This document shows, in pieces, positions 21,858 to 36,175 of a DNA stretch of 64,000 nucleotides. The notes beneath the pieces are model-generated. The model ran no database searches and was not told where the DNA came from. It worked only from the letters and a program-made list of their open reading frames with translations. The first letter of the stretch is position 1; each line of letters starts with the position of its first letter. Made by a program: the position numbers and the translations under genes. This stretch comes from Ramlibacter pinisoli (lineage in GTDB: Bacteria; Pseudomonadota; Gammaproteobacteria; Burkholderiales; Burkholderiaceae_C): assembly GCF_009758015.1 (NCBI RefSeq), contig NZ_WSEL01000009.1, positions 1,351,501 through 1,415,500 on the forward strand. The letters are read 5' to 3'.

Positions 21858-22784
21858 TCAGGCGCCCCGGTGCACCAGCCCGGCGATGCGCTTGTCGGCC
21901 AGGAAGAACTGCGCCGCGGCCGGGTAGGCAATGGCGTGCAGGGCCAGGAGGGCGAGCTCGGCGCCGTCGAAGCCGCGGCTGATGGCCGCCGCGCCGTACA
22001 GCGCCAGCATGGGCAGCGCGATCAGCGCGCCGTAGCCCCACAGGAAACGCGTGCGCTCCTGCGGGGTGGGAGGACGCCCCACCGACCAGCCGAACCAGAT
22101 CGCCACCAGTGCGGCGGCGCCGATGGCCATCGCGATGGTGACGGGCATGCCGTGCAGTTGCAGCGCCAGCCGGCCCACGATGTTCAGGCCGAACACCAGC
22201 AGGGCGGCGCCGAGCGCGACCGGGTAGGGGCGCACCGGCCGGGATGCACCGGTGGCCCTTGCCGGAGTGGCGGCCACGGCGGTCCTGGGGGCCGCCGGGA
22301 TGGACGTGGCCGGCATGCTGTCGGCGCCCAGGCCGGTCGCCAGCGCGCGGATCCGGCAGGTGTTCATGCGCTCGCACACGGCGGCCAGCGGGACGCCGTA
22401 GACCGGGGCGATGGCCAGGTCGACGCCCAGCAGGGCGCGCAACACGCCGGGCTTGCCGCGGCCGGGCCGCCAGCGGATGCCGATGAAGCGGGCCTTGCCC
22501 AGGTCCACCAGCGCCGGCGGCTGGATGTCGTCCCAGAGGATGCGCCGGTGCGTGTACAGCGAGGCGATCTCCAGGCCCTTGCGCCCCAGGCTCAGCGTCG
22601 TGCCACCGGCCACTTGGGCCGCCAGCGCGGCCAGCCCGCCGGCGACGAACGACACGACCAGGACCCAGCCCAGCAGCGGTTGCTGCTCCAGGACCGCGCC
22701 CCCCAGCACCGCCACCGTGGCGCATGCCGCCACCGCCGCCGCACCCAGGACCTTGCTGCTCCGATACACCTGCACCTGCGCCAT
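21858..22784 (-). CDS. Hypothetical multi-span membrane protein
   Basis: A 308-residue protein with two membrane segments near residues 12-30 and 37-60, a soluble stretch (TTLSLGRKGLEIASLYTHRR then ILWDDIQPPALVD) that looks like a PH-type beta domain, an alanine/proline-rich linker (about 155-185), and three more hydrophobic segments (about 187-207, 216-235 and 245-290). The ATG at 22784 begins MAQVQVYRSSK. It converges with the IclR gene. I do not recognise a named family; the PH-like assignment is tentative. Confidence 0.7.
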   Translation of the reverse strand: MAQVQVYRSSKVLGAAAVAACATVAVLGGAVLEQQPLLGWVLVVSFVAGGLAALAAQVAGGTTLSLGRKGLEIASLYTHRRILWDDIQPPALVDLGKARFIGIRWRPGRGKPGVLRALLGVDLAIAPVYGVPLAAVCERMNTCRIRALATGLGADSMPATSIPAAPRTAVAATPARATGASRPVRPYPVALGAALLVFGLNIVGRLALQLHGMPVTIAMAIGAAALVAIWFGWSVGRPPTPQERTRFLWGYGALIALPMLALYGAAAISRGFDGAELALLALHAIAYPAAAQFFLADKRIAGLVHRGA

Positions 22785-22925: not shown

Positions 22926-23894
22926 TCAATCGAACTTGATGTTGGCGGCCTTGACCACCTGTCCCCACTTCGCGACCTCCTGCCGCAGCAGGTCGCCGAA
23001 TTCGCCCGGACTGGATGGGAACGGCTCCATGCCGAGAACCGCCAGCCTGGGCCCCAGGCCCGCTGCCGCGAACGCTTTCAGTGCATCGGCATTGATCTTC
23101 TGCACCAGGCCCGGCGGCATGCCGCCCGGTCCCATGAGGCCGAACCAGACGGACACGTCGAACCCCGGCACACCGGACTCGGCGATCGTCGGCAGCGACG
23201 GCATGGCCGCGGCCCGGCGCGCCGTCGTGGCAGCCACCGGCCGCAACTTGCCCGCCGCGACGTGCTGCCGGATGGCGGCGGGTGTGTCGACGATGAAGTC
23301 CACCTGGCCGGTCAGCGCATCCAGCATGGCGGGGTTGCTGCCACGGTAGGCGACCACCGTCGCCTGCAAGCCGGTGCGCGCCTTCAGCAGCTCGTAGCTC
23401 AGGTGCGCCATGGTCCCGTTGCCGGCGTGGCCGAAATTGAGCTTGCCCGGGTTGGCGCGCCCATAGCGGACGAACTCCTCGAACGTCTGGGCCGGCACGT
23501 TCGGGTTCACCGTCAGGATGAACGGCGACTGCGCGAGCAGCCCGATCGGCGTGAGGTCCTTGAAGACGTCGTACGGCAGCTTGGGGTAAGCCGCGGGCGT
23601 GACGGCGATCGTGCTGGAGATCATCAGCAGCGTGTAGCCGTCGGGCGGTGACTTGGCCACCGCGTCGGTGCCGATCGTGGCGCCGGCGCCGGGCCGGTTC
23701 TCCACCACCACCGGCTGCTGCCACAGGTCGCCCAGCGCCTGCGCGAACATGCGCGTGAACTGGTCACCGCCGCCGCCCGCGGCATACGGCAGGATGATCT
23801 TCACCGGCTTGGTGGGGAACGCGTCCTGCGCGAACGCGCCGGGACCGATCGCGAGAGTCAGCGCCGCGAGCAGCGCGGCCAGCCGTCGTTTCAT
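22926..23894 (-). CDS. Bug/TctC-family periplasmic binding protein 4
   Basis: A 322-residue receptor with signal peptide KRRLAALLAALTLAIGPGAFA and mature start AFPTKPVKIILPYAAGGGGD. It contains VVENRPGAGATIGTDAVA, PPDGYTLLMI, YDVFKDLTPIGLL and the ligand-pocket stretch VAYRGSNPAMLDALTGQVD. It is the last gene of the ten-gene minus-strand run that begins with rraA at 32346, 26 bases after the previous receptor. The ATG at 23894 has a strong GGAGGTG site. Confidence 0.93.
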   Translation of the reverse strand: MKRRLAALLAALTLAIGPGAFAQDAFPTKPVKIILPYAAGGGGDQFTRMFAQALGDLWQQPVVVENRPGAGATIGTDAVAKSPPDGYTLLMISSTIAVTPAAYPKLPYDVFKDLTPIGLLAQSPFILTVNPNVPAQTFEEFVRYGRANPGKLNFGHAGNGTMAHLSYELLKARTGLQATVVAYRGSNPAMLDALTGQVDFIVDTPAAIRQHVAAGKLRPVAATTARRAAAMPSLPTIAESGVPGFDVSVWFGLMGPGGMPPGLVQKINADALKAFAAAGLGPRLAVLGMEPFPSSPGEFGDLLRQEVAKWGQVVKAANIKFD

Positions 23895-23920
23895 GGGAAC
23901 ACCTCCATCGCCCGTCGCAC

Positions 23921-24913
23921 TCACTCGGACCGGATGCCCGCGTCCTTGACCACCCGGGACCATTTCGCCAGTTCCGCCCGGACGTAGGCACCGAATTCCT
24001 CGGGCGAGCTGGCCTGCGCGTCGACTCCGCGCTTCCTGACCGCGTCACGGAACTCGTCGGAAGCCGTGATCCGGCGCGCATCCGCGTTGAGCCGGGCCAC
24101 GACGGCGGCGGGCGTGCCCGCCGGCACGAACAGGCCGTACCAGGACGAGAGTTCGAAGCCCGGCAGGGTCTCGGCGATGGCGGGCAGGTTGGCCAGCGAC
24201 GCGTTGCGCTGCAGGCCGGTCATCCCGATCACGCGCACCTTGCCCGAGTCGACCAGCGGCATCGCGACCAGCGGGCTGGTGAACAGGTACTGCACCTGGC
24301 CGCCGGCCAGGTCGGCCAGCGCCGGCCCGGAGCCCTTGTACGGGACGTGCACCACGTTCAGGTTGCCGAGCAGCTTGAACAATTCGCCGGCGAGGTGGTC
24401 GGGCCCGCCGTTGCCGGACGACGCATAGTTCAGCTTGCCCGGGTTGGCCCGGGCGTAGGCCACCAGGTCCGCGACCCCGCGCACCGGCAGCGCAGGATGG
24501 ACCACCAGCACGTACGGCATGCTGGCCAGCAAGGTGACGGGCACCAGGTCCTTCACGGGATCGAAGCCGGTGGCAGGCCCGTAGACCGCGGGCACGATCG
24601 CGTTCGGACCGGTGGCGCCGAACAGCACCGTGTAGCCGTCCGGCGTGGAGCGGGCCACTTCCGCCGCGGCGATCGCGCCGCCCGCCCCGCCCTTGTTCTC
24701 CACCACGTAGGCCTGGCCGTTCAGGGTGGCGAATTCCTTGGCCAGCAGGCGGGCGAAGATGTCGACGGCGCCGCCGGGCGCATACGGCACGAGGATCTTC
24801 ACCGGCCTGGCCGGGTACTGCTGCGCGGCAGCGTGGAACGCCGGCACGGCGAGCAACGCGGCCCCGCCGGCCGTGGCCAGTGCCGTCCTGCGGCGCATCG
24901 GAACGTCGGCCAC
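23921..24913 (-). CDS. Bug/TctC-family periplasmic binding protein 5
   Basis: A 330-residue receptor with an N-terminal MRRRTALATAGGAALLAVPA signal of twin-arginine-like type and mature start QYPARPVKILVPYAPGGAVD. It keeps VVENKGGAGGAIAAAEVA, TPDGYTVLFG, VPYKGSGPALADLAGGQVQ and NLPAIAETLPGFELSSWYG. The start is either GTG at 24913, one base from the stop of the dioxygenase upstream, or ATG at 24898 five codons later. I favour GTG because of the tight coupling. It is directly adjacent to a second receptor, so two receptors are made in tandem. Confidence 0.92.
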   Translation of the reverse strand: MADVPMRRRTALATAGGAALLAVPAFHAAAQQYPARPVKILVPYAPGGAVDIFARLLAKEFATLNGQAYVVENKGGAGGAIAAAEVARSTPDGYTVLFGATGPNAIVPAVYGPATGFDPVKDLVPVTLLASMPYVLVVHPALPVRGVADLVAYARANPGKLNYASSGNGGPDHLAGELFKLLGNLNVVHVPYKGSGPALADLAGGQVQYLFTSPLVAMPLVDSGKVRVIGMTGLQRNASLANLPAIAETLPGFELSSWYGLFVPAGTPAAVVARLNADARRITASDEFRDAVRKRGVDAQASSPEEFGAYVRAELAKWSRVVKDAGIRSE

Positions 24914-24914
24914 G

Positions 24915-25769
24915 TCAGCCCACCAGCGTCGTGCGGTGCATCAGCCGCCGCTGCGGCAGCTTGTAGTCGAAGGTGGCCTTGTGCTGGGTGGAACAGTTGT
25001 CCCACATCACGAGGTCGTTCAGCTGCCACGAGTGCGTGTAGCAGAACTGGGGCTGGACGATGTGCTGCGTCAGCTCCTCGATCAGCGCCTTGCTCTCGTC
25101 CTCCGGCAGGCCGAGGATGCGCGTGGTGTAGCCGTCGCTCACGAACAGGCACTTGCGGCCGGTGACCGGGTGCACGCGCACGACCGGATGCACCGCCTCC
25201 TGCTCCTGCGCCTTCGAGTGCTTCGTCGCCGCGCTGTCCTGCACGCCGCTGCGCGCCGCGAGTTCGAACCGGCGCAGCATGCTGTTGACGGCCTGCAGGC
25301 CCTCCAGCCGGCGCTTCATCGACTGGGGCAGCGCGTCGTAGGCCGCCGCCGTGCTGGCGAAATGCGTGTCGCCCAGGACGCGCCCGTCCTGCACCGGGAC
25401 CTCGATCGCGTGCAGCGCCGAGGGGCCGTGCGGCTTGGGCAGGAACGGACCGTCGCTGTGCCAGAACATCCCGGCGTCGTGGGCGCCGATGTAGCGTTCG
25501 CCTTCCTTGATGTTCGAGACGACGAAGATCTCGGGCCGGCGGTCGCCGAGGTAGGCGTCGTAGGCCAGCTTCTTGAGCTCGCCGAACCGGCTGCTGAAGC
25601 GGATGTGGTCGTCGTCGCTGAACGGTCCGCCACGCACCACGAGCAGGTCGTGGTCGTAGAACGCCTGCCGGATCTTCGCGAAATCCCCGTCGCCGATGGG
25701 GCCGGTCAGGTCCAGCCCGCGGACCTCGGCGCCGATGCTGGGCCTCAGTGGTGTGATCGTGATGGCCAT
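24915..25769 (-). CDS. TauD/TfdA-family 2-oxoglutarate dioxygenase A
   Basis: A 284-residue Fe(II)/2-oxoglutarate-dependent dioxygenase. The iron triad is present: H104 and D106 in MFWHSDGPF, and the distal histidine H263 in CSTQHKATFDY. The 2-oxoglutarate arginine lies in QRRLMHRTT. The family hydroxylates a carbon next to a sulfonate, ether or ester, releasing an aldehyde or keto product plus CO2 and succinate (taurine for TauD, 2,4-D for TfdA). The ATG at 25769 has GAGAGAGG upstream. It lies between a LysR gene and two receptors. The substrate is unknown. Confidence 0.93.
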   Translation of the reverse strand: MAITITPLRPSIGAEVRGLDLTGPIGDGDFAKIRQAFYDHDLLVVRGGPFSDDDHIRFSSRFGELKKLAYDAYLGDRRPEIFVVSNIKEGERYIGAHDAGMFWHSDGPFLPKPHGPSALHAIEVPVQDGRVLGDTHFASTAAAYDALPQSMKRRLEGLQAVNSMLRRFELAARSGVQDSAATKHSKAQEQEAVHPVVRVHPVTGRKCLFVSDGYTTRILGLPEDESKALIEELTQHIVQPQFCYTHSWQLNDLVMWDNCSTQHKATFDYKLPQRRLMHRTTLVG

Positions 25770-25812
25770 TCGAACCTCTCTCTCGGAATCGGTTGCCTGG
25801 ATGACGACGCAC

Positions 25813-26796
25813 TCAGGCGCGCTTGCGCGTGGCCGGGCGTCCCGCGATCTGGAACTGCTGCACGCAATTGGGCAGCAACTGCTCGACCTGCGGCTGCACG
25901 ACCTCGCGCAAAGCCGCGATCGCGCCGGCGTGGATGCGCGGCAGGAGCTCCTGCGCTTCATTGACCCGCATCGCCACGACCAGCGTGCGCTGGATGACCT
26001 TGCCGGGCACCGGCGCGACGCGCACGGCATTGGGCGCCACCAGTGACTTCAGGTAGATCAGCGGCGTCATGATGGTCCAGCCGAAGCCGGCGGCCACCAT
26101 GCGCAGCGCCGCGTCGGTGGTGTCGAACTGGTAGCGCACCCGGGCGTCGGTGCCCGCGCGCGACAGGTAGCCCTGGATCACCGCGCCCATGTGCGAATCG
26201 CGGCCGTAACGGATGAACGGGACCTCCGCGGCCAGGGCGCCGATGTCGTCGAGCGCACCCTTGTACGACTTCGGCGCGCACAGGACGAACGATTCGGTCA
26301 GCAGCGGCTGCGCCACGATGCCCGGGGCGGCACGCTCCTCGGAGGTGATGATCACGTCGGCCTGGCGGTCGAGCAGGGCCTGCACGCTGGTGCTGCGGAA
26401 GCCCGACGTCACCGTCCACTCGCCCGCCACGTCCTTCAGGTGCAGCAGCATGCTGGCGCCCGCGGTCGACGTGAAGCTGTCCAGCATGCCCAGCCGCAGG
26501 AACGGGACGCGCCCGCTCGCGCCGTGGCGTGCCGCATCCTCCAGCTCGCGCAGGCTGGCCATCACCCCGCGGGCCGACCGCAGCACCGAGTTGCCGACCA
26601 GGGTGAGCGCAGGCGGCCGCACGCTGCGGTCGAACAGCGTGGTGCCGAGGATGTCCTCCAGCTGCGTCACCGCCTGCGACACGGCGGCCTGGCTCATGCC
26701 CAGACGGCTGCCGGCCGCGCTCATGGTGCCGTCCTCGACGACGGCCAGGAAGATCTCCAGCAGGCGCGGGCTGGGCCGGGGAGCAGGTGCTGCCAT
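25813..26796 (-). CDS. LysR-family transcriptional regulator
   Basis: A 327-residue regulator. The helix-turn-helix spans about residues 12-70 (LLEIFLAVVEDGTMSAAGSR, then AAVSQAVTQLEDILGTTLFD). The effector domain follows with IRYGRDSHMGAVIQGYLSRA and the long segment after AAGFGWTIMTPLIYL. The gene lies inside the dioxygenase run, with gaps of 26 and 43 bases, instead of being divergent from it as most LysR genes are, so it is probably co-transcribed with its targets. The ATG at 26796 has GGAGAA upstream. Confidence 0.93.
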   Translation of the reverse strand: MAAPAPRPSPRLLEIFLAVVEDGTMSAAGSRLGMSQAAVSQAVTQLEDILGTTLFDRSVRPPALTLVGNSVLRSARGVMASLRELEDAARHGASGRVPFLRLGMLDSFTSTAGASMLLHLKDVAGEWTVTSGFRSTSVQALLDRQADVIITSEERAAPGIVAQPLLTESFVLCAPKSYKGALDDIGALAAEVPFIRYGRDSHMGAVIQGYLSRAGTDARVRYQFDTTDAALRMVAAGFGWTIMTPLIYLKSLVAPNAVRVAPVPGKVIQRTLVVAMRVNEAQELLPRIHAGAIAALREVVQPQVEQLLPNCVQQFQIAGRPATRKRA

Positions 26797-26822
26797 CGCA
26801 GGGTTCTCCGGGCGGGTGCGCT

Positions 26823-27731
26823 TCAGAACGTGTCCAGGCCCGCCACCGTGGTGCGGTGGAGGAGCCGGCGCTGCGGCAGCGCGTAGTCGCCCACCGCGAG
26901 GTGCTGGCTGGAGCAGTTGTCCCACAGCAGCAGGTCGCCCACCTGCCAGCGGTGCGTGTAGACGTTCTCGTCGCGCACGATCCAGTCGGACAACTCGCCG
27001 ATCAGCGCGTCGCCTTCCTGCGGCTCCATGTCGACGATGCGCCCGGTGGCCGCGCGGCTGACGTACAGGCACTTCTCGCCGGTGAACGGATGCGTGCGCA
27101 CGACCGGATGCACGGCTTCCCGCTTCTGCGCCTCGGTGAGCGGCGGGCGGTTCTTGGCGGCGTTCTCCGCGTGCATGCGGGCATACACGTTGGCCAGCGA
27201 GTTGGCCCCGCGCAGGCCCTGCAGGCGCGCCTTCGTCGAGGCCGGCAGCTGTTCGTAGGCGTGCGCGCTGTTGGCGAACAGCGTGGGACCGAGCGGTGCG
27301 CCGTTGGTGTCGTGCGGGATCTCGATCGCGTACAGCATCGAGTACAGGTTGGGCTGGGGCAGGAAGTGGCCGTCGGTGTGCCACACGCGGCCCGCATCGA
27401 CCAGGCCGATCGGCTTGCCGTGGTCGTCCAGGACGTTCGACACGCGCACCAGGTCGTGGTAGCCCGGCACGAGGTACTCGGGGATCACGTGCCGCTCCAG
27501 CCGGCCGAAGTAGCGGCTGAACGCGATCTGCTGCTCGGGCGTGATGCGCTGGTTGCGCAGCACCACCACCTTCCAGCGGTGCAGCGCGTCGCGGATCCTC
27601 GCCATCACCCCGTCGGCCACGCCGCGCGAGATGTCGACCCCGCGGATCTCGGCGCCCGCGGGCCGGCCGCTCGGGACGACCTCGAAGGCGGCGGCGCCGC
27701 TGCGTTGCTCGATCGTTGCTTCGGTGCTCAC
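26823..27731 (-). CDS. TauD/TfdA-family 2-oxoglutarate dioxygenase B
   Basis: A 302-residue paralogue of dioxygenase A. The iron ligands are H118 and D120 (GRVWHTDGHF) and H277 (CSSQHLAVGDY); the arginine is in QRRLLHRTT. The start is GTG at 27731 after a GGGAGAGG site; the overlapping ATG at 27733 would stop at once, so GTG is forced. It shares the C-terminal pattern ALPQRRLLHRTT with A, so these two are the closest pair of the four. It sits between a Bug receptor and the LysR gene. Confidence 0.93.
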   Translation of the reverse strand: MSTEATIEQRSGAAAFEVVPSGRPAGAEIRGVDISRGVADGVMARIRDALHRWKVVVLRNQRITPEQQIAFSRYFGRLERHVIPEYLVPGYHDLVRVSNVLDDHGKPIGLVDAGRVWHTDGHFLPQPNLYSMLYAIEIPHDTNGAPLGPTLFANSAHAYEQLPASTKARLQGLRGANSLANVYARMHAENAAKNRPPLTEAQKREAVHPVVRTHPFTGEKCLYVSRAATGRIVDMEPQEGDALIGELSDWIVRDENVYTHRWQVGDLLLWDNCSSQHLAVGDYALPQRRLLHRTTVAGLDTF

Positions 27732-27753
27732 ATGCCTCTCCCGGTTGCGCCGC

Positions 27754-28734
27754 TCATTCGGGCTTGACGTTGGCGTCCTTGATGACCTTGGCCCACATCG
27801 CGGTGTTCTGCCGGATGTAGTCGGAGAACTGCTGCGGGGTCCAGGGCGTGGCCTCCAGGTCCATCGCGGTGAACCGCTTCTTCATGTCGTCGGAGCCGAG
27901 GATTTTGTTCACCTCCGCGTTCAGGCGCGCCGCGATCGCGGGCGGAAGGCCCGGGGGGCCGAGCACCCCGTACCAGGACTCCACCTCGAAGCCCGGCAGC
28001 GTCTCGGCGATGGTGGGCACGTTGGGCGCCTTGGCCATGCGCTTCTTCGACGACACGCCCAGCACCTTCAGGCGGCCCTTCTCGGCCTGCGCCAGCGAGC
28101 TGCTGAAGGCGCCGAACATGAACGTGACCTGCCCGGCGATCAGGTCGATTTCCGCCGGGGCGCCGCCCTTGTAGGGCACGTGCGTGGCGCTGAAGCCCGC
28201 CATGCTCTTGAACATCTCGGCCGCGAGGTGGTTGGAGCCGCCGGCGCTCGGCGAGGCGTAGTTCAGGCGGCCGTTCTGCGCCTTGCCGTAGTCGATCAGC
28301 TCCTGGACGTTGCTCACGGGAACCGAGTTGCCGACGACCAGGGCCTGCGGGCCCACGGCCATGTTGGCGATCGGGGTGAAGTCCTTGTAGACCGAGTACG
28401 GCAGCTTGGGCAGCAGCGTCTCCTGGATCGACAGCGGGGTGGACCCGAACAGCAGCGTGTAGCCGTCCGGTGCCGCCTTGGCGACGAAGTCCGATCCGAT
28501 GACGCCGCCGGCGCCGGCGCGGTTGTCGACGACGATCGGCTGGCCGAGCGCGTCGCCCAGCGGCTGGGCCAGCGAGCGCGCCAGCACGTCCAGGGGCCCG
28601 CCCGGCGGGTACGCCACCACCAGCCGGATCGGCTTGGTCGGATACGTCGCCTGCGCGAAGGCTGGCGGGGCGGCCGCGAGCGCCAGGGCGGCAGCCGCGA
28701 GGAGCCGGCGACGGCTGGAATTCACGTGGTTCAT
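27754..28734 (-). CDS. Bug/TctC-family periplasmic binding protein 6
   Basis: A 326-residue receptor with signal peptide SSRRRLLAAAALALAAAPPA and mature start TYPTKPIRLVVAYPPGGPLD. It keeps VVDNRAGAGGVIGSDFVA, APDGYTLLFGSTPL, VPYKGGAPAEIDLIAGQVT and NVPTIAETLPGFEVESWYG. It lies 17 bases after dioxygenase C and 22 bases before dioxygenase B. The one-to-one alternation of receptor and dioxygenase suggests matched pairs acting on related compounds. Confidence 0.93.
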   Translation of the reverse strand: MNHVNSSRRRLLAAAALALAAAPPAFAQATYPTKPIRLVVAYPPGGPLDVLARSLAQPLGDALGQPIVVDNRAGAGGVIGSDFVAKAAPDGYTLLFGSTPLSIQETLLPKLPYSVYKDFTPIANMAVGPQALVVGNSVPVSNVQELIDYGKAQNGRLNYASPSAGGSNHLAAEMFKSMAGFSATHVPYKGGAPAEIDLIAGQVTFMFGAFSSSLAQAEKGRLKVLGVSSKKRMAKAPNVPTIAETLPGFEVESWYGVLGPPGLPPAIAARLNAEVNKILGSDDMKKRFTAMDLEATPWTPQQFSDYIRQNTAMWAKVIKDANVKPE

Positions 28735-28751
28735 GATCGTCTCCCGCGGGT

Positions 28752-29657
28752 TCAGACGGGCACCGGACCGGCAATGCCGGCGCGGTGCAGCCGGCGCGGG
28801 ATCTGCCCGTAGTCGAACACGGCCAGGTGCTGCAGGGCGCAGTTGTCCCAGACCAGCAGGTCACCCTTGCGCCAGCTGTGGCGGTACTGGAACTGCGGCT
28901 TCTTGATGTGCTCGGTGAGGAACGCCAGCAGCTCGGCCGACTCGCCGGGCTCGAGCCCGACGATGTCGCTCGTGTGGCCTTCGGTCACGAAGAGGCACTT
29001 GCGCCCGTTGACAGGATGCGTGCGCACCACCGGGTGGTCGACGTCCGGCAGCGCATTCCTCTGCTCGGCGCTGAGCGGCGCCCGCTTCAGCTGGCCCTTG
29101 GCCTCCTTCTTGGCGATGTGCGCCGTGAAGCTGTGGGTCGCGCGCAGCCCGTCGACGCGCCCTTTCAGGTCGGACGGCAACGCGTCGTAGGCGCTCCAGG
29201 CGCTGGCGAAGACCGTGTCGCCCAGCACGCGGCCGTCCTGCTGCGGGATCTCGATGCCGTACAGCAGCGTGTACATGTCGGGCGTCTTGAGGTACGAACC
29301 GTCGGTGTGCCACAGCATGCCCGCATCGGCGATGCCGATCAGCTCGCCGTCGTCCCGGCGGATGTTGGACACCACCGTGAGGGCGGGCGTGCCGGGCACC
29401 GCATAGCGGTTGTAGAACGAGGTGCGCAGGTCGCCGAACTGCCCGGCGAACGCCTGCTGCTGCGCCGGCGTGATGCCCTGCCCGCGCAGCACGATCACCG
29501 AGTACTCGTGCAACGCATCGCGCAGGAACTCGTAGTCGGCGTCGGTCGCTCCCGCCCCGACGTCGATGCCGACGATCTCCGCGCCGATCGGTGCCTGCAT
29601 CGGGATGGCCGCGGGCGCCTGGCCCGCGGCCGCGCCCCGGCCTGCTGAAGCTTGCAT
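28752..29657 (-). CDS. TauD/TfdA-family 2-oxoglutarate dioxygenase C
   Basis: A 301-residue dioxygenase with H117 and D119 (MLWHTDGSYL), distal H277 (CALQHLAVFDY) and arginine in IPRRLHRAG. The ATG at 29657 follows AGGAG. An alternative start ten codons upstream lacks a site. The N-terminal 22 residues are a low-complexity alanine/glycine stretch not shared with the other three paralogues. It precedes Bug receptor 6. Confidence 0.93.
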   Translation of the reverse strand: MQASAGRGAAAGQAPAAIPMQAPIGAEIVGIDVGAGATDADYEFLRDALHEYSVIVLRGQGITPAQQQAFAGQFGDLRTSFYNRYAVPGTPALTVVSNIRRDDGELIGIADAGMLWHTDGSYLKTPDMYTLLYGIEIPQQDGRVLGDTVFASAWSAYDALPSDLKGRVDGLRATHSFTAHIAKKEAKGQLKRAPLSAEQRNALPDVDHPVVRTHPVNGRKCLFVTEGHTSDIVGLEPGESAELLAFLTEHIKKPQFQYRHSWRKGDLLVWDNCALQHLAVFDYGQIPRRLHRAGIAGPVPV

Positions 29658-29690
29658 GGTGGCTCCTTGAAGAATGGACATGCGCATGCC

Positions 29691-30641
29691 TTACATGGCC
29701 GCCGGTGCGACCGGTTCGCGCGGCGCGCCGGGGACGGCCTCGACGGGCTCGCGCGACCACGGGGTCTTGCGGATGCCGTCCGGCTCCTGGGGGTCGTGGT
29801 AGTGGCCGCTGACCGGCGCGAACAGCGTGCACCGTTGCAGCACGCGCAGTTCGGTGGGGTCGTAGTCCTGCACGGCGTAGTGCAGCAGGCACCGGTTGTC
29901 CCACATCAGCATGTCGCCCGTCGTCCACCGGTGGCGGTAGACGAACTCGGGGCCCGAGGCGAACTCGTTGAAGAAGTCGATGAGGGGCCGGCTCTCGCGT
30001 TCCGTGTAGCCGACGAAGTGCTTCAGGAAGCCGCCGACGAACAGGTGCTGGCGGCCCGACTCCGGGTGCGTGCGCACCACCGGGTGGACGACGGGCGGAT
30101 AGTTGCGCCGGCGCTCGGCCTGCACTTCCGGCGTGTAGCGGTGGAAGTCGGGCGCGCCGCTCACGTCGTGCACGCCCTGCAGTTGCCCGGCCAGCGCCCG
30201 CATCGCCGGCGACAGCGCCTCGTAGGCCCGGTACATGTTGGCGAACATCGTGTCGCCGCCGATGGAGGGCAGCTGCAGCGCATGCAGCCAGCTCGCGGTG
30301 GCCGACCGGTTCGAGAACGACATGTCGGTGTGCCACTTGTCGGCCACCAGCGTCATCAGCTTCTTGCCGCCGATCGTCTGCGGCTTGTTCGAGACGATGT
30401 TCACTTCCGGGAAGTCCGGCCGGTTCCACAGCGGGCGGTTGCGGTGGTCGTCCAGCGTGCCGAAGCGCGAGCAGAAGGCGATCTGCTGCTGCGGCGACAG
30501 CGACTGGCCCGGGAAGCACAGGACGAGATGGTCGATCCAGGCCTGCCGGATGGCGGCGACGGTGGCGTCGTCCAGCGCCTCGCGCAGGTCGATGCCGCGG
30601 ATCTCGGCCCCGAGAGGGTAGGAAAGCTGCCTGATGTCCAT
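29691..30641 (-). CDS. TauD/TfdA-family 2-oxoglutarate dioxygenase D
   Basis: A 316-residue member, the most diverged of the four. Ligands are H104 and D106 (DKWHTDMSFS) and H254 (RCLLHYAVQDY), with R266 or R270 near RVLQRCT for 2-oxoglutarate. KWHTDMSF and the long C-terminal extension (GHYHDPQEPDGIRKTPW) resemble TfdA and alkylsulfatase-type members. The ATG at 30641 has AAGGAG upstream. It is the first dioxygenase in the transcript, after the RraA and Bug genes. Confidence 0.93.
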   Translation of the reverse strand: MDIRQLSYPLGAEIRGIDLREALDDATVAAIRQAWIDHLVLCFPGQSLSPQQQIAFCSRFGTLDDHRNRPLWNRPDFPEVNIVSNKPQTIGGKKLMTLVADKWHTDMSFSNRSATASWLHALQLPSIGGDTMFANMYRAYEALSPAMRALAGQLQGVHDVSGAPDFHRYTPEVQAERRRNYPPVVHPVVRTHPESGRQHLFVGGFLKHFVGYTERESRPLIDFFNEFASGPEFVYRHRWTTGDMLMWDNRCLLHYAVQDYDPTELRVLQRCTLFAPVSGHYHDPQEPDGIRKTPWSREPVEAVPGAPREPVAPAAM

Positions 30642-30661
30642 GGGAACTCCTTGTCGATGCG

Positions 30662-31636
30662 CTACTCGGCCTTCGCGCCCGACACCTTGACGACCTCGGC
30701 CCAGCGGACGCGCTCGCTCGCGAGCTGCAGCCGGAACTGCTCCGGCGTGCCGCCCACGGCCTCGCTGCCGACGCCGGCCAACCGCTGCTGCACGTCCGGC
30801 CGCGCCGCGATCCTGGCGACGGCGGCCTGGAGGCGCTCGACGACATCGCGCGGCAGGCCCGGCGGGCCGACGAGGCCGGCCCAGGTCTCGGCCGCGTAGT
30901 CGCGCACGCCGGCTTCGGCGACGGTCGGGACGTTCGGGAAGGCGGCGGAGCGGCGCGCGGACGTGACGGCCAGCGCCCGCACCTTGCCCTGCTGGATCAG
31001 CGGTGCCGCCGTGCTCAGCGTGTCGAACATCCCCTGGATGTGGCCCGCCATGACATCGGTGGTCGCCAGCGACGTGCCCTTGTAGGCGACGTGCACGATG
31101 TCGACGCCGGCCCGCAGCTTGAGCATCTCCAGCGACAGGTGGGCCAGCGTGCCGTTGCCGCCGCTGCCGAAATTGAGCTTGCCCGGCTGCGCGCGCGCCA
31201 GGTCGACCAGCTCCTGCATGGTGCGCACGGGCAGGCTGGGCGTCACCTGCAGCACCATCGGGCCGGTGGCCACGATCGAGATGTGGGTGAGGTCCTTCTC
31301 CGGGTCGAACGGCATGTTCGCGTACAGCGCGGGATTGATGCCCAGGGTGCCGGCCGACACCATTGCCAGCGAGTAGCCGTCGGCAGCCGATCGCACGATC
31401 TGCTCGGTTCCGGTGTTGCCGTTGGCGCCGGGGCGGTTCTCGATGACGAACGGCTGGCCCAGATCCTCCGTCAGGTGCTGTGCGAATAGCCGCGCCGTGA
31501 CGTCGAGGTTGCCGCCTGCCACGTAGGGCACGACGATGCGCACGACCTTCTGCGGGTAGCGCTGCTGCGCGTAGGCAGGCGCCAGGATGGCGCCGCCCAC
31601 GGCGGCGCACAGGCCGAGGAACTGCTTGCGCCTCAC
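30662..31636 (-). CDS. Bug/TctC-family periplasmic binding protein 7
   Basis: A 324-residue receptor with signal peptide RRKQFLGLCAAVGGAILAPA and mature start RYPQKVVRIVVPYVAGGNLD. It contains VIENRPGANGNTGTEQIV, AADGYSLAMV, VAYKGTSLATTDVMAGHIQ and NVPTVAEAGVRDYAAETWAG. Translation begins with a GTG whose last two bases belong to the TGA of the rraA gene (GTGA overlap), showing coupling to that gene. It is the second gene of the long operon. Confidence 0.92.
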   Translation of the reverse strand: MRRKQFLGLCAAVGGAILAPAYAQQRYPQKVVRIVVPYVAGGNLDVTARLFAQHLTEDLGQPFVIENRPGANGNTGTEQIVRSAADGYSLAMVSAGTLGINPALYANMPFDPEKDLTHISIVATGPMVLQVTPSLPVRTMQELVDLARAQPGKLNFGSGGNGTLAHLSLEMLKLRAGVDIVHVAYKGTSLATTDVMAGHIQGMFDTLSTAAPLIQQGKVRALAVTSARRSAAFPNVPTVAEAGVRDYAAETWAGLVGPPGLPRDVVERLQAAVARIAARPDVQQRLAGVGSEAVGGTPEQFRLQLASERVRWAEVVKVSGAKAE

Positions 31637-32346
31637 GCCGCCTCCCCGTCGTCGAACGCGGCGTCGAACTCGACCGCGACCAGCCGCTGGAACGCGGCGG
31701 ACGACCCGGTGATGTTCCACAGCATCTCGCCGCCGGCGATGCGCGCCGCGACGTCCTCCTCGCGCCGCATCTTGCCTTCCGCCCCGCCGACCACGGCTTC
31801 CGCGTGCCGGCGCTCGACCACGATGACGCCGTCGCCGTCGGCCGCCACGAGGTCGCCCGGCCGGACCACGACGCCGCCGCACACGACCGGGACGTTCACG
31901 CCGCCGAGCTTGCCCTTGTCGGCGTGCGCCGGCGACACCTCGGTGGCCCACACGGGAAAGCCGAGCTGGTCGACGGCATCGACGTCGCGCACGCTGCCCT
32001 GCACGACCACGCCGGCAAGGCCTCGCTTGATGGCAAAGCGCGTCGCGATGTCGCCCCATTGCGCGGCGGATGTCTCCCCCTGGCTCACCACGACGAGCAC
32101 GTCGCCCGGCTCCGCCAGGCTCAGGGCCCGATGCATCATGAGGTTGTCGCCGGCCCGGCACAGCGCGGTGATGGCGGGCCCGACGGCGTTTCCGCGCGTG
32201 ACGCGCCGCATGCGCGGGGACATCAGGCCCGCGTACGCGAGATGGGCGGTGTTCTCGTGCAGGTCCGCGACCGTCACCCGCCGCGCACGCGCACACAGCC
32301 CGGGCGCGACACGGTTGACTCGCAGGTAGATCATCGGCTGGGACAT
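31633..32346 (-). CDS. RraA-family aldolase/decarboxylase-like protein
   Basis: A 237-residue RraA/HMG-aldolase-family protein. Landmarks are RVTRGNAVGPAITAL, the GDN loop, GLAGVVVQGSVRDVDAV (substrate-binding R and metal-binding D) and AADGDGVIVV. Members either cleave 4-hydroxy-4-methyl-2-oxoglutarate to pyruvate, decarboxylate oxaloacetate, or inhibit RNase E. In a catabolic operon the aldolase role is more likely, but this is inference. It is the first gene of the ten-gene run, divergent from a D-2-hydroxyacid dehydrogenase. The ATG at 32346 has GGAGGTCT upstream. Confidence 0.9.
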   Translation of the reverse strand: MSQPMIYLRVNRVAPGLCARARRVTVADLHENTAHLAYAGLMSPRMRRVTRGNAVGPAITALCRAGDNLMMHRALSLAEPGDVLVVVSQGETSAAQWGDIATRFAIKRGLAGVVVQGSVRDVDAVDQLGFPVWATEVSPAHADKGKLGGVNVPVVCGGVVVRPGDLVAADGDGVIVVERRHAEAVVGGAEGKMRREEDVAARIAGGEMLWNITGSSAAFQRLVAVEFDAAFDDGEAA

Positions 32347-32398: not shown

Positions 32399-32425
32399 TT
32401 TACTTATTCTAAGTATAAGATCCAT
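32399..32425. promoter_or_regulatory. AT-rich palindrome between rraA-type and dehydrogenase genes
   Basis: CTTAT-TCTAAGT-ATAAG (32403-32419), a perfect 5-bp inverted repeat around a 7-base spacer, in an A/T patch that stands out in this GC-rich DNA. It lies midway in the gap between the two divergent genes, so it could be the operator and part of the promoters of both. Whether the embedded LysR or another regulator binds it is not known. Confidence 0.6.
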
Positions 32426-32454
32426 CCGTGTCCGATCGCAATGCCAGGAAAACC

Positions 32455-33489
32455 ATGAGTCGCACACCCGCCCCGTCCCCGCGCCCCCGGGTGGTCCTGA
32501 TGGAGGACTACCTGGACCAGGCGCGCACCATGCCCTGCGTGCAGGAACTCGCGCGGCACACCGACCTGGCCATCTACACGGACAAGGCGCGCAGCAAGGA
32601 CGAGCTCCTGCAGCGGCTGGCCGGGGCGCGCGCCGCCATCACCATCCGCGATCGGGTCCTGTTCGACAGCGATGTCTTCGCGCGGGTGCAGGAACTGGAA
32701 CTGCTGTCGGTCTGCGGTCCGCGCCTGCAGCCGCACGTCGACCTCGACGCGGCCACGCGCGCGGGCGTGCTGGTCTGTTGCGCGCCCCCGAACTCGCTGT
32801 CGAGCGTCCCGCACCATGCGACGGCCGAACTGGCCTGGACGCTCATCCTCGGGCTGGCCCGCAACGTGGTGCACAACCAGGCGGTGCTGCGCGCCGGCGG
32901 CTGGCAGACCGTCGCCGGCGTCGGGCTGGTGGGCAAGACGCTCGGCGTCATCGGCAGCACGGGCAAGGTCGGCTCCATCGTCGCGCGCCTGGGCCTCGCC
33001 TTCGGCATGCGCGTCATCGCCTGGAGTCCCCGCCTCACGGCGGAGAAGGCGGCCGGGCAAGGCATCGAGGCCGTGACGCTGGAGGAACTGCTTGGCTCGT
33101 CGGACGTGGTGAGCCTGCACGCGAACGTCACGGCGCAGAGCCGCTCCATGCTCGGCGATGCGGAGTTCGCCAGGATGAAGCCAGGCGCGATCCTGGTGAA
33201 CACCGCCCGCGCCGCCCTCGTCGACGAGCAGGCGCTGCGGCGCGCACTCGACGCGGGGCCACTGGCGGGCGCCGGCCTGGACGTGTTCTGGGACGAGCCG
33301 CTGCCCCAGGACCACTGGGTGCGCCGGCACGACAAGGTGCTGCTGCAGCCGCACCTCGGCGCGTTCACGCCGGAGGGCTACGAGTGGATCGTGGCGCCGG
33401 GCGTCGAGGCGGCGCTGGCATGGCTGCGGGGCGAGGCGCTGACGTTCGCGAATCCCGAGGCCGCGGCCGTTGCCGGTCGGCCCGCGTGA
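32455..33489 (+). CDS. D-isomer-specific 2-hydroxyacid dehydrogenase
   Basis: A 344-residue NAD(P)-dependent reductase of 2-keto acids. The Rossmann motif is slightly unusual, GVIGSTGKVGSIVARL, in place of GxGxxG with tighter spacing. Catalytic residues are the arginine in VNTARAALVDEQAL, glutamate in DVFWDEPLP and histidine in LLQPHLGAF. The ATG at 32455 has CAGGAAAA upstream; a GTG nine codons earlier is possible. It is transcribed away from the dioxygenase operon and shares its control region, so it may act on a keto acid formed there. Confidence 0.92.
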   Translation: MSRTPAPSPRPRVVLMEDYLDQARTMPCVQELARHTDLAIYTDKARSKDELLQRLAGARAAITIRDRVLFDSDVFARVQELELLSVCGPRLQPHVDLDAATRAGVLVCCAPPNSLSSVPHHATAELAWTLILGLARNVVHNQAVLRAGGWQTVAGVGLVGKTLGVIGSTGKVGSIVARLGLAFGMRVIAWSPRLTAEKAAGQGIEAVTLEELLGSSDVVSLHANVTAQSRSMLGDAEFARMKPGAILVNTARAALVDEQALRRALDAGPLAGAGLDVFWDEPLPQDHWVRRHDKVLLQPHLGAFTPEGYEWIVAPGVEAALAWLRGEALTFANPEAAAVAGRPA

Positions 33490-33514: not shown

Positions 33515-34861
33515 TCACGCCAGCGACGCCAGCACCCGGTCCACCATCACGCCCGACTGCCCGAGGTAGTTGGACGGGTCGCACAGCCTGGCCAGCGCGT
33601 CGCGGTCGAGGTGCTTGTTGATCTCGGGGTGCTCCGCCAGCAGGTCCAGCAGGGGCCGGCGCTGCTGCACCGCCTGGCGGCAGATGTCGTACACCAGGTC
33701 GTGCGCATACTCGCGGCCGATGTAGGGGCCCAGGCCCATCATCACGGCCTCGCTCATCACCAGCCCGTGCGTGAGGTCGATGTTGCGGCGCATCGCCTGC
33801 GCGTCGACCTCCAGGCCTTCCAGCACGAAGCGTGACTGCCTGAGCGCGCCGGCCAGCAGGCAGAACGCCTCGGGCAGCACGATCCACTCGATTTCCCACG
33901 GGCCGGTGGAGCGCTCGTGGTCGGCCACCATGGCGTCCATCAGCGCCGCCGCATGCTGGCGCAACACCGAGATGGACGCATGGATGTAGCAGCTGGAGAT
34001 GGGATTGCGCTTCTGCGGCATGGTGCTGCTGCTGCCGCGGCCGTGGGCGAACGGCTCGTAGACCTCGCCCACCTCGGTCTGCATCATCAGCTTGACGTCC
34101 ATGCTCAGCTTGCCGAGCGTGCCGCCCACCAGCCCCATGAAGGCGCCGACCTCGGCGATGTTGTCGCGGATGGTGTGCCAGGCGATCAGCGGCTGCTTCA
34201 GGCCCAGCTCGGCGCACAGGCCGGCCTGGGTCTCCATCGCGCCCCGCTCCAGCGAGGCCAGGGTGCCGGCCGCACCGGCGAACTCGCCCACCAGCACCCG
34301 CTCGCGCAGCTGCGCCAGCCGTTCGCGGTGGCGCTCGATGGCGCTGAGCAGGCCGGCCATCTTGTAGCCGAAGGTCAGCGGGATGGCCTGCTGCAGGTTG
34401 CTGCGCCCGATCATCGGCGTGTCGCGGTGCGCCCTGGCATGGCGCGCCATCGCGGCCGAGATCGCAGCCAGCTCCGCGTCGACGATCTCCAGCCCCTCGC
34501 GGATCTGCAGCACGGTGGCGGTGTCGGTGATGTCCTGGGTGGTGGCGCCCCAGTGGCAGTACTCGCCCAGCTTGTCGCGGCACAGCGCGTTGAGCTGCGA
34601 GACCACCCCCAGCACCGGGTAGCCGATGCGCTCGGTCTGCTGGCGCAGCTTGTCCATGTCGATCTGCTCGAGCCGGCAGTGGCTCACGATCTCGTCGGCG
34701 GCCTCCTGCGGGATCAGGCCGAGGCGGCCCTGCACGATGGCCAGCGCGCGTTCGATGTCCAGGTACTTCTGGGTCCGGTTCTCGTCGGACCAGACGCGGC
34801 GCATGGCGTCGGTGGCGAAGATGTTGCCGAAGATGGACGAGTCGATGATGGAAGCGGGCAT
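33515..34861 (-). CDS. Fumarase/aspartase-superfamily lyase (PcaB/adenylosuccinate lyase-like)
   Basis: A 448-residue class-II fumarase superfamily member. The signature loop is GSSSTMPQKRNPI, and other conserved parts are YCHWGATTQDITDTA and MIGRSNLQQAIPLTFGYKMA. These features are shared by 3-carboxy-cis,cis-muconate cycloisomerase and adenylosuccinate lyase; the sequence is closer to the PcaB type, but the substrate is not fixed. It would eliminate or rearrange a dicarboxylate. It lies 95 bases after the hydratase gene upstream and converges with the 2-hydroxyacid dehydrogenase. The ATG is at 34861. Confidence 0.9.
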   Translation of the reverse strand: MPASIIDSSIFGNIFATDAMRRVWSDENRTQKYLDIERALAIVQGRLGLIPQEAADEIVSHCRLEQIDMDKLRQQTERIGYPVLGVVSQLNALCRDKLGEYCHWGATTQDITDTATVLQIREGLEIVDAELAAISAAMARHARAHRDTPMIGRSNLQQAIPLTFGYKMAGLLSAIERHRERLAQLRERVLVGEFAGAAGTLASLERGAMETQAGLCAELGLKQPLIAWHTIRDNIAEVGAFMGLVGGTLGKLSMDVKLMMQTEVGEVYEPFAHGRGSSSTMPQKRNPISSCYIHASISVLRQHAAALMDAMVADHERSTGPWEIEWIVLPEAFCLLAGALRQSRFVLEGLEVDAQAMRRNIDLTHGLVMSEAVMMGLGPYIGREYAHDLVYDICRQAVQQRRPLLDLLAEHPEINKHLDRDALARLCDPSNYLGQSGVMVDRVLASLA

Positions 34862-34956
34862 GGGTTGTCTCTCTGGTGTCTCTTGTTCGATGGATCGGAA
34901 AGGAAGGCCGGGCTCCGGATCGCGCCGGCCGTGGGCCGCGCGTCGTCCGGCGGCCC

Positions 34957-35817
34957 TCAGCGCAGCGCGGCGGTGGCGTCCATGGTCAGCCAGCCGTCGT
35001 GGTCCTGCGCCCAGAGCTGGACGCTGCGGCCGTCGGCGGCGGGGGCACCGCAGACCTGGAACGGATGGCCGTCGAAGGTGGGCCGCACGGCACGGAAGCG
35101 GAAGCTGGCCACGTCGGCCTGCGGCCACTGGCGCCGCAGCAGGTCCATCAGCAGCGTGGCGATCAGCGGCCCGTGCACCACCAGGCCCGGGTAGCCCTCG
35201 ACCTCGGTGACGTAGCGGCGGTCGTAGTGGATGCGGTGGCCGTTGAAGGTGAGCGCCGAGTAGCGGAACAGCAGCACGTCGTCGGGCACGATCTCGCGCC
35301 GCCACTGCGCCTGGCCGTCCGGCCGCCTGGGCGCCAGCTCGGCTTCGCCCGGCTGCTTCAGCGGCCGGTAGACGATGTCGTGGAACTCCACCAGCGCCGG
35401 GTCCGCTACGCCGTTGCAGCGCAGCTCGTGCCGCACCTTGACGAACACCAGCTCGCCGGTGCGGCCCGACTTGGACGTGATGTCCTCGATCGTCGAGGTG
35501 CGCTCGACGGCGTCGCCGATGCGCACCGGCGAGCGGAACTCGAACTGGCTGCCGGCCCACATGCGGCGCGGCAGCGGCACCGGCGGCAGGAAGCCGCCGC
35601 GCCTGGCATGGCCGTCGGGGCCGATCTCCGACTGCCGGTGGCGCGGCAGGAAATACAGCCAGTGCCACAGCGGCGGCAGCGGCATGCCGGGCCGGGCGTC
35701 GACCGGTTCGTGGTCGAGCGTGGCATTGAGCGCCAGCGCGGGGGTGGGCCCCATGGTCTCCGCCACCGTCTCGGTGCGGCCGATCCAGGCGGCCCAGTCG
35801 TCCTTGTCTCCAGTCAT
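34957..35817 (-). CDS. MaoC/HTD2-type hydratase, mesaconyl-CoA hydratase-like
   Basis: A 286-residue double-hotdog protein of the MaoC dehydratase group, resembling itaconyl-CoA/mesaconyl-C4-CoA hydratase. N-terminal half: PPLWHWLYFLPRHRQSEIGP and GFLPPVPLPRRMWAGSQFEF. C-terminal half: FRYSALTFNGHRIHYDRRYV with the catalytic D/H-type pair and the following GYPGLVVHGPLIATLL. It would add water to a CoA thioester of an unsaturated acid. The ATG at 35817 fits the family start; the upstream frame is not coding-like. It precedes the lyase on the same strand, which hints at branched dicarboxylate breakdown. Confidence 0.9.
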   Translation of the reverse strand: MTGDKDDWAAWIGRTETVAETMGPTPALALNATLDHEPVDARPGMPLPPLWHWLYFLPRHRQSEIGPDGHARRGGFLPPVPLPRRMWAGSQFEFRSPVRIGDAVERTSTIEDITSKSGRTGELVFVKVRHELRCNGVADPALVEFHDIVYRPLKQPGEAELAPRRPDGQAQWRREIVPDDVLLFRYSALTFNGHRIHYDRRYVTEVEGYPGLVVHGPLIATLLMDLLRRQWPQADVASFRFRAVRPTFDGHPFQVCGAPAADGRSVQLWAQDHDGWLTMDATAALR

Positions 35818-35934
35818 CGGGGCTCCCGTGGCGCCGGGCGGGGCGCCGTGGGCGAGAGTCTGCCGCATTTGCCGACGGCCCATTTCCAGCCTGAGCGAGG
35901 GATTGTTGCTAGAGGGCTGCAACGCCTTCGGGTG

Positions 35935-36175
35935 CGCGGCAGGTGGTGCCTGGCAGGGCCTCATGGTGGGCCGGTCGCGGCTTTGCTTCGCTCGCCGCGA
36001 CTGCGCTCCGCCTAGCACCGGGCCGGGCTTGCCGGCTCCAACTCACTGCGCGCTACGCGCTCCGTTCAGACAAGGCGCCGGAGCCAGTTCACGATGCGCG
36101 CTGGCGCGCGCTCCGCCCGGCCCGGTCCGTCTCCGCCGTCCCACAAATCGTCCCCGCCAGGCACCACCTGCCGCG
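35935..36175. repeat. 241-bp element with perfect 20-bp terminal inverted repeats
   Basis: The left end CGCGGCAGGTGGTGCCTGGC (35935-35954) is the exact reverse complement of GCCAGGCACCACCTGCCGCG (36156-36175). The inside is GC-rich with shorter palindromic words (TGCGCGCTACGCGCTCCG, ATGCGCGCTGGCGCGCGCTC) and no open frame that looks coding. It could be a non-autonomous mobile element or a long stem-loop. Confidence 0.7.

Follow-up and report, generated by a model that had tools for sequence, protein, structure and literature searches.

Four TauD/TfdA Dioxygenases and Four Bug Receptors in a Ten-Gene Array of Ramlibacter pinisoli, a Probable LysR-Controlled Catabolic Operon

The 5.5 Mb genome of Ramlibacter pinisoli (G000) carries a run of ten genes in which four dioxygenases of the TauD/TfdA family (A to D) and four Bug, or TctC-type, solute receptors (Bug4 to Bug7) stand together with a LysR-type regulator and an RraA-fold protein. 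The genes lie within a stretch of 64,000 nucleotides (C9:1351501-1415500, hereafter the window) and are co-oriented on its minus strand from 32346 to 22926, in the order rraA, Bug7, D, C, Bug6, B, LysR, A, Bug5, Bug4, with intergenic gaps from -4 (rraA/Bug7) up to 43 bases (LysR/A). This same-strand arrangement and its short gaps, as described in the first-pass annotation, are borne out by gene models and by a Pfam profile search of the ten-gene set, in which the four TauD, four TctC, LysR and RraA domains passed their cut-offs; the dioxygenases score 190-236 bits against PF02668 and the receptors 225-248 bits against PF03401, each with a cut-off of 27. The features are listed below in window coordinates, with G and L numbers designating genomes and related loci.

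32455..33489, plus strand: D-2-hydroxyacid dehydrogenase (PF02826/PF00389), divergent from rraA; a 64% relative ends the G024 array
32406..32441, minus strand: two overlapping promoter-like hexamer pairs found by consensus scan; they overlap the palindrome
32403..32419, no strand assigned: palindrome CTTATTCTAAGTATAAG (reverse CTTATACTTAGAATAAG), candidate LysR-type operator; single exact site in G000, with equivalents at L020 and L022
31633..32346, minus strand: rraA, RraA-fold class II pyruvate aldolase / oxaloacetate decarboxylase-like protein (Pfam, 3NOJ alignment)
30662..31636, minus strand: Bug7, TctC-type solute receptor and conserved core receptor; GTG start; 66-85% relatives in L019, L020, L034 and L030
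29691..30641, minus strand: dioxygenase D, TauD/TfdA, on a separate branch (Pfam, tree)
28752..29687, minus strand: dioxygenase C; alternative start at 29657; the database copy, P0001, has 301 amino acids (aa)
27754..28734, minus strand: Bug6 (Pfam); 87% relative in L019
26823..27731, minus strand: dioxygenase B (Pfam, tree)
25813..26796, minus strand: LysR-type regulator (Pfam); relatives of 58% (L020) and 45% (L022)
24915..25769, minus strand: dioxygenase A (Pfam, tree)
23921..24913, minus strand: Bug5 (Pfam); GTG start
22926..23924, minus strand: Bug4; GTG start at 23924 or, likelier, ATG at 23894; 62% relative in L030

The ATG of Bug4 precedes a signal peptide, and choosing it makes the gap to Bug5 +26 instead of -4.

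Grouping and conservation of the ten genes

The ten-gene set is a non-chance grouping, as four TauD genes in 5.7 kb go far beyond random placement. A genome profile search gave 12 TauD hits in G000; of 2,000,000 simulations with 12 randomly drawn positions, 4 placed some four of these within 5727 bp. The clustering of Bug genes (at least four among ten; p of about 1e-4 to 8e-4 in a simple binomial, 5300 genes assumed) is less surprising because the genome holds at least 150 of them (246 first-look candidates, 150 scored). A same-strand Bug gene also directly adjoins four of the eight other TauD genes of G000 (L073, L075, L076, L077), and one further TauD gene (L071) is separated from a Bug gene by a single gene.

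Parts of the array recur elsewhere. The closest counterpart, a contig of 4140 bp from another metagenome-assembled genome (L019), preserves the order rraA-Bug7-D-C-Bug6, the five genes being 82, 85, 83, 80 and 87% identical to those of the window; its ends cut the gene set, and B and LysR were looked for and not found in the rest of the genome (2.9 Mb, no completeness value given). At L034 (G379, another genus) an A-like gene (50%), cut by the contig end, is followed co-directionally by C (64%), B (65%), an HpcH gene and Bug7 (66%). L020 (G453) has LysR (58%) divergent from B (68%)-HpcH-Bug7 (70%)-C (71%), and L022 (G454, a record named Alphaproteobacteria) has B (65%) at the contig edge, then LysR (45%), C (62%) and an amidase. 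The neighbourhood of L035 (G113) contains C (53%), RraA, Bug, CoA transferases and a CitE/Ccl-like HpcH. Two loci come from G024, which belongs to the same large genus as G000: L030, with B (62%)-HpcH-Bug7 (72%) and a Bug4-like gene (62%) adjoining on the opposite strand, and contig C31 (L021/L027), where one strand reads TauD-Bug-Bug-Bug-TauD-Bug-D (70%)-RraA-PEP-mutase-like-C (67%)-A-like (42%), followed beyond the A-like gene by an opposite-strand Bug and then by a Bug and a dehydrogenase (64%). Loci L028, L029, L031-L033, L036-L038 and L063 were tagged only by best match to the window and a few reference proteins.

Two or three of the A, B and C clades are therefore found together in other genomes, an alphaproteobacterium included. 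The same neighbourhoods do not support the earlier proposal of one receptor for each dioxygenase: in the stretches seen, three dioxygenases share one Bug gene at L034 and two share one at L020. Frequency samples at E 1e-95, each including the window, recovered A in 1 and C in 3 of 399 family genomes and B in 1 of 399 order genomes; these samples missed G024 (C at 1.4e-134) and so are not counts of absence. On plasmids, 25 records matched C at E 1e-40, none reaching 60% identity.

In the G024 genome (4.9 Mb; completeness 94%, contamination 2%) TauD/TfdA hits number 63, eight of them on the 54 kb contig C31, against 12 in G000 and 11, 11 and 18 in three others.

Dioxygenase clades and their active sites

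The HxD...H motif is intact in all four dioxygenases, as the first-pass annotation had read it, and alignment shows that A-D also retain the Thr for 2-oxoglutarate and the two Arg near the C-terminus. We take the motif to be the metal triad, and the Thr and two Arg to serve 2-oxoglutarate and substrate, in TauD/TfdA enzymes. The corresponding TauD positions 99, 101, 255, 126, 266 and 270 are kept in A-D and in 20/20 sequences of the A, B and C types.

A tree was built from 40 sequences; its outer order is unsure owing to long branches (two of the genome's own TauD, TfdA and RdpA). Sequences of types A, B and C group in it as a single superclade (support 95/83; 20 rows), which contains none of the eight other TauD genes of G000. 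Clade B (100/100, 5 rows) and clade C (100/99, 9 rows) both include L022. Clade A (100/100) consists of 3 rows, from the window and G024. The two A-like sequences, of L034 and L027, form a pair (100/100) whose link to A is weak (85/52), and L032 joins the group at 91/79. Dioxygenase D falls outside the superclade, grouped with proteins of L019, G024 and a Thalassobaculum plasmid. On this tree, A, B and C appear as three old sister clades and D as a separate branch. All 20 superclade sequences share the motif G-x2-D-A-G-x2-W-H-x-D and an extra glycine, opposite which TauD, TfdA, RdpA and D have a gap. A recent tandem duplication was considered and ruled out: A, B and C are only 42-47% identical to one another, B and C have closer counterparts in other genomes (60-71%, with 80% in L019 and 53% in G113), and the tree separates the clades.

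Each type also has its own residues at positions that we take to line the substrate pocket. At the sites aligned to TauD 158 and 206, Arg/Tyr is found in 5/5 A and A-like sequences, Val/Ala in 5/5 B and His/His in 9/9 C; at the site aligned to TauD 70, Leu occurs in 3/3 A, Ile in 2/2 A-like, His in 5/5 B and Ser in 7/9 C, and L032 matches none of these types at the three sites. Because of the clade-specific residues at 158 and 206, A, B and C look differently tuned, so that the earlier idea of distinct dioxygenase specificities is supported in part for the enzymes and not supported for matched receptor-dioxygenase pairs.

Among solved proteins, A and C match a taurine dioxygenase best, B has it in second place, and D is closest to an (R)-phenoxypropionate dioxygenase. 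The taurine dioxygenase equivalog NF007104 (313 bits) is reached by none of the four (A 214, B 186, C 216, D 207). B and D retain His where TauD has His70, and none of A-D keeps the TauD residues aligned to 73, 94, 95 and 158, presumably taurine contacts, in a part of the alignment that is gappy. With sub-cut-off scores and most taurine contacts lost, taurine dioxygenase function is unsupported.

A candidate operator between rraA and the dehydrogenase gene

Between 21800 and 33600, the range of our promoter and terminator consensus scan, the only promoter-like sites are two on the minus strand at 32441-32406, before rraA (2 against a shuffle mean of 0.6); terminator-like sites number 0 against 3.3 expected in shuffles, which says little. 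For the divergent dehydrogenase, the ATG at 32455, after AGGAAAACC, is a likelier start than the GTG at 32428 and gives a dehydrogenase-rraA spacing of 108 bases.

LysR-type operators have the form of a T-N11-A palindrome, and one candidate of this form, unique as an exact match in G000, lies in the putative promoter region of rraA. This element, CTTATTCTAAGTATAAG (32403-32419), is the sole window match to CTTATA-N5-TATAAG with up to two mismatches (expected 0.02). Equivalents are present at L020, as CTTATAGTGACTATAAC between LysR and B, and at L022, as CTTATATTTAGTATAAG between LysR and C, and the distance from palindrome to start codon is 56 bases for rraA in G000, 49 for B in L020 and 59 for C in L022. 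Seven genomes were searched for TTATW-N5-WATAA as exact matches, inexact copies not being sought (a backwards control gave 0-4 per genome); G000, G453 and G454 have one copy each, always at the cluster, and G113 has none. These three genomes also hold the closest LysR relatives (100, 58 and 45%), with G024 next at 42%. The regulator gene itself changes place: in the window it is inside the operon, in L020 it diverges from B, and in L022 it stands with B on one side and C on the other. At L022 the region between the divergent LysR and B has no palindrome of this type, and the copy precedes C. The contigs of L034 and L019 end at or near the place where a palindrome would be expected; none is seen in the 66 bases upstream of rraA in L019, which are all that the contig holds.

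The first-pass annotation had assigned RraA and the divergent dehydrogenase to the pathway, as the enzymes handling its keto-acid product. Their place as likely parts of a single LysR-controlled catabolic operon is supported: the only promoter-like sites and the palindrome lie between the dehydrogenase gene and rraA, and a dehydrogenase of 64% identity recurs at the end of the G024 array. Control of the operon by its own LysR through the palindrome, with autoregulation, is what this arrangement suggests.

Two neighbouring regions may be mentioned here. On the same strand, 141 bases past Bug4, a gene at 21858-22784 encodes a hydrophobic protein of 308 aa that has no Pfam or NCBIfam match and might be an eleventh gene of the operon. 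Convergent to the dehydrogenase gene, the minus strand at 33515-36018 encodes a PcaB-like lyase, which falls slightly short of two cut-offs for 3-carboxy-cis,cis-muconate cycloisomerase, and a MaoC-like protein.

A putative acid-degrading pathway and its alternatives

The best functional clue is an oxo-acid aldolase adjoining the Bug7 relative (at least 66% identity) in 5/5 loci, from which we infer that the dioxygenases yield a 2-oxo acid. The aldolase is RraA in the window and L019 and HpcH/HpaI in L020, L034 and L030; these are unrelated folds with one kind of chemistry. In class II 4-hydroxy-4-methyl-2-oxoglutarate/4-carboxy-4-hydroxy-2-oxoadipate (HMG/CHA) aldolases an Asp lies 21 residues before an Arg-Asp pair, and the window RraA, aligned with 3NOJ over query residues 23-210, keeps the Asp, the Arg-Asp pair, GDN and the Lys; Arg-123, Asp-124 and the preceding Asp of the HMG/CHA aldolase are thus all present. 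The available text of PMC5065237 describes Arg-123 as essential, Asp-124 as a metal ligand and oxaloacetate decarboxylation as a second reaction. The window protein scores below the NCBIfam cut-offs (155 against 179 for NF006731; 133 against 304.5 for TIGR02798). In 3/3 HpcH proteins of the relatives (L020:8189-8920, L034:2449-3321, L030:8476-9171), Lys replaces the catalytic His45 of HpaI, and Arg, Glu and Asp positions that we take to be catalytic are kept; all three miss the HpaI cut-off widely (91-108 against 369). His45 and Arg70 are both important in HpaI, as the accessible part of PMC8560999 has it. The three HpcH proteins may be decarboxylases or altered aldolases and possibly represent a distinct subfamily.

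Among the receptors, Bug7 is the only one with close relatives in several loci; Bug5-tagged genes in related loci reach 41% identity at most. No TctA gene lies in the window, and the 8 TctA hits of G000 are all elsewhere (TctB was not searched), so Bug4-7 are orphan receptors. This is usual for Bug proteins, and the partners of TphC, TpiBA, are likewise encoded elsewhere in the sections of PMC8556258 open to us. On the Thalassobaculum plasmid (L067), the relative of D (44.7%) is followed by TctB-TctA-TctC, which ties the D enzyme type to a tripartite tricarboxylate transporter (TTT) uptake route. G000 as a whole has 8 TctA membrane subunits against at least 150 Bug/TctC receptors. Plasmid 3 of Variovorax sp. 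SRS16 (L066), a strain from linuron-contaminated soil, carries a TauD-SDR-Bug cluster that also encodes two thiamine-diphosphate enzymes, subunits of a ring-hydroxylating dioxygenase and a member of the PEP-mutase family.

Based on these observations, we consider it probable that the window holds a single LysR-controlled catabolic operon oxidising one or more small organic acids towards a 2-oxo acid. The ten genes would form one transcription unit for the catabolism of a small-organic-acid family. Bug receptors, with Bug7 as the core, would bind the acid in the periplasm and pass it on to a TctA-type carrier whose gene lies at another locus; the cytoplasmic enzymes A, B, C and D would hydroxylate it using Fe(II), O2 and 2-oxoglutarate, and the product would fall apart or be processed to a 2-oxo acid. 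RraA would then cleave or decarboxylate this acid towards pyruvate, the divergent D-2-hydroxyacid dehydrogenase would balance oxo against hydroxy acid, and the operon-encoded LysR would act at the one palindrome between rraA and the dehydrogenase gene. Our leading guess for the substrate, by analogy, is O-substituted 2-hydroxy acids, following the ether logic of TfdA and RdpA, whose ether cleavage gives a 2-oxo acid or glyoxylate.

Several points weigh against such an operon. TauD-Bug adjacency, being a habit of G000, is not special to it. The promoter-like hexamers overlap an AT-rich palindrome and may be its by-product; consensus scans are weak in DNA of 71% G+C. At the clusters of G379, G113, G452 and G024 there is no exact TTATW-N5-WATAA copy; those of G024 (2), G379 (1) and G452 (1) lie off-cluster, and none was found beside the more distant LysR of G024 (L059, 42%). 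The motif itself was derived from three of the loci discussed, which leaves its uniqueness as the sole independent evidence. The Lys in place of His45 means that aldol cleavage is not assured in the HpcH proteins of the relatives, and among the fetched loci the 64% dehydrogenase relative was tagged in G024 only.

A different, somewhat unlikely arrangement would have the dioxygenases work in series on one polyfunctional acid with several ether or C-H sites of attack, instead of side by side on variants of it. L034 fits it, with A-like, C and B beside only one Bug gene and one aldolase gene in the stretch seen, as do B and C staying together in L020 and L022 and three types that share the G-x2-D-A-G-x2-W-H-x-D motif yet differ at TauD 158 and 206. 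However, such clade-specific pockets are equally compatible with parallel use, B stands with HpcH and Bug7 and no adjoining C at L030, and only C and D are found within the 4.1 kb of L019. Sulfur scavenging, in which the dioxygenases would free sulfite or sulfate from sulfonates or sulfate esters in the manner of TauD and AtsK, is improbable: the taurine dioxygenase matches of A, B and C and the His70 equivalents of B and D are what speak for it, but A-D fall far below the NCBIfam cut-off (186-216 against 313), the residues at the other presumed taurine-contact positions are lost (in that gappy alignment), and the ten genes include no ABC transporter gene, while a TauD with a TauB-like neighbour is located elsewhere in G000 (L070). 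Very improbable, and largely refuted because the neighbourhoods are conserved, is the view that Bug genes, being abundant, gathered by chance around duplicated dioxygenases without sharing a function: the Bug count, the four of eight TauD neighbours and the low identity of Bug5-tagged genes allow for it, but the TauD density, the joint recurrence of A, B and C as old clades, the LysR and palindrome accompanying dioxygenases in three genomes, and the gene order compared across genomes, on which the first-pass annotation had let the matter turn, all speak against it.

The proposed LysR-controlled operon resembles several known systems in part. Like A-D, the herbicide dioxygenases RdpA/SdpA and TfdA are of the TauD/TfdA family, and RdpA and SdpA are paralogues specialised for variants (enantiomers) of one compound class; A, B and C form another clade in the tree, and no Bug gene was seen in the 4 kb and 2 kb flanks of RdpA and TfdA. 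E. coli tauABCD also joins a receptor and a TauD enzyme in one operon, but with an ABC transporter, a single dioxygenase and a sulfonate substrate, through contacts mostly lost in A-D. The catabolic 3-mercaptopropionate cluster of Advenella mimigardefordensis places a dioxygenase beside two TctC receptors and a LysR; it differs in its single enzyme, Mdo, which we take to be a cupin thiol dioxygenase and not TauD/TfdA. Its genes are LysR, CoA transferase, desulfinase, Mdo dioxygenase, AhpD-like, TctC and TctC in the available sections of PMC5373536. The Comamonas tph operon, as far as the open part of PMC8556258 describes it, combines the regulator TphR, terephthalate dioxygenase and the Bug-type receptor TphC, with TpiBA encoded elsewhere, and so is likewise a catabolic operon with an orphan TctC-type receptor using a carrier from another locus. 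It differs in having a three-component ring dioxygenase, one oxygenase, one receptor, no aldolase and an aromatic substrate. Our searches of the open literature on TauD with TTT/Bug, LysR or paralogue expansion (including the accessible text of PMC5373536 and PMC2864759) turned up no operon like the one described here, which is weak evidence of absence, as subscription papers mostly fall outside it.

The families are known ones, but together they make up a conserved module, apparently under its own regulation, with a core receptor, three or four oxygenases, an aldolase and a candidate operator. We tentatively suggest, as a bolder idea than the operon itself, an undescribed aerobic pathway of beta- and alphaproteobacteria in which the ancient sister TauD/TfdA subfamilies A, B and C, with complementary pockets, would form 2-oxo acids from a class of natural hydroxy acids or carboxylated ethers, RraA and HpcH/HpaI would be interchangeable in the next step, and one LysR would act at a single genomic operator. 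Given the 63 TauD hits of G024, enzymes of this class may serve some of these bacteria as an extensive toolkit for degrading acids, and the module could reveal the real roles of some orphan Bug receptors and of some genes annotated as "taurine dioxygenase".

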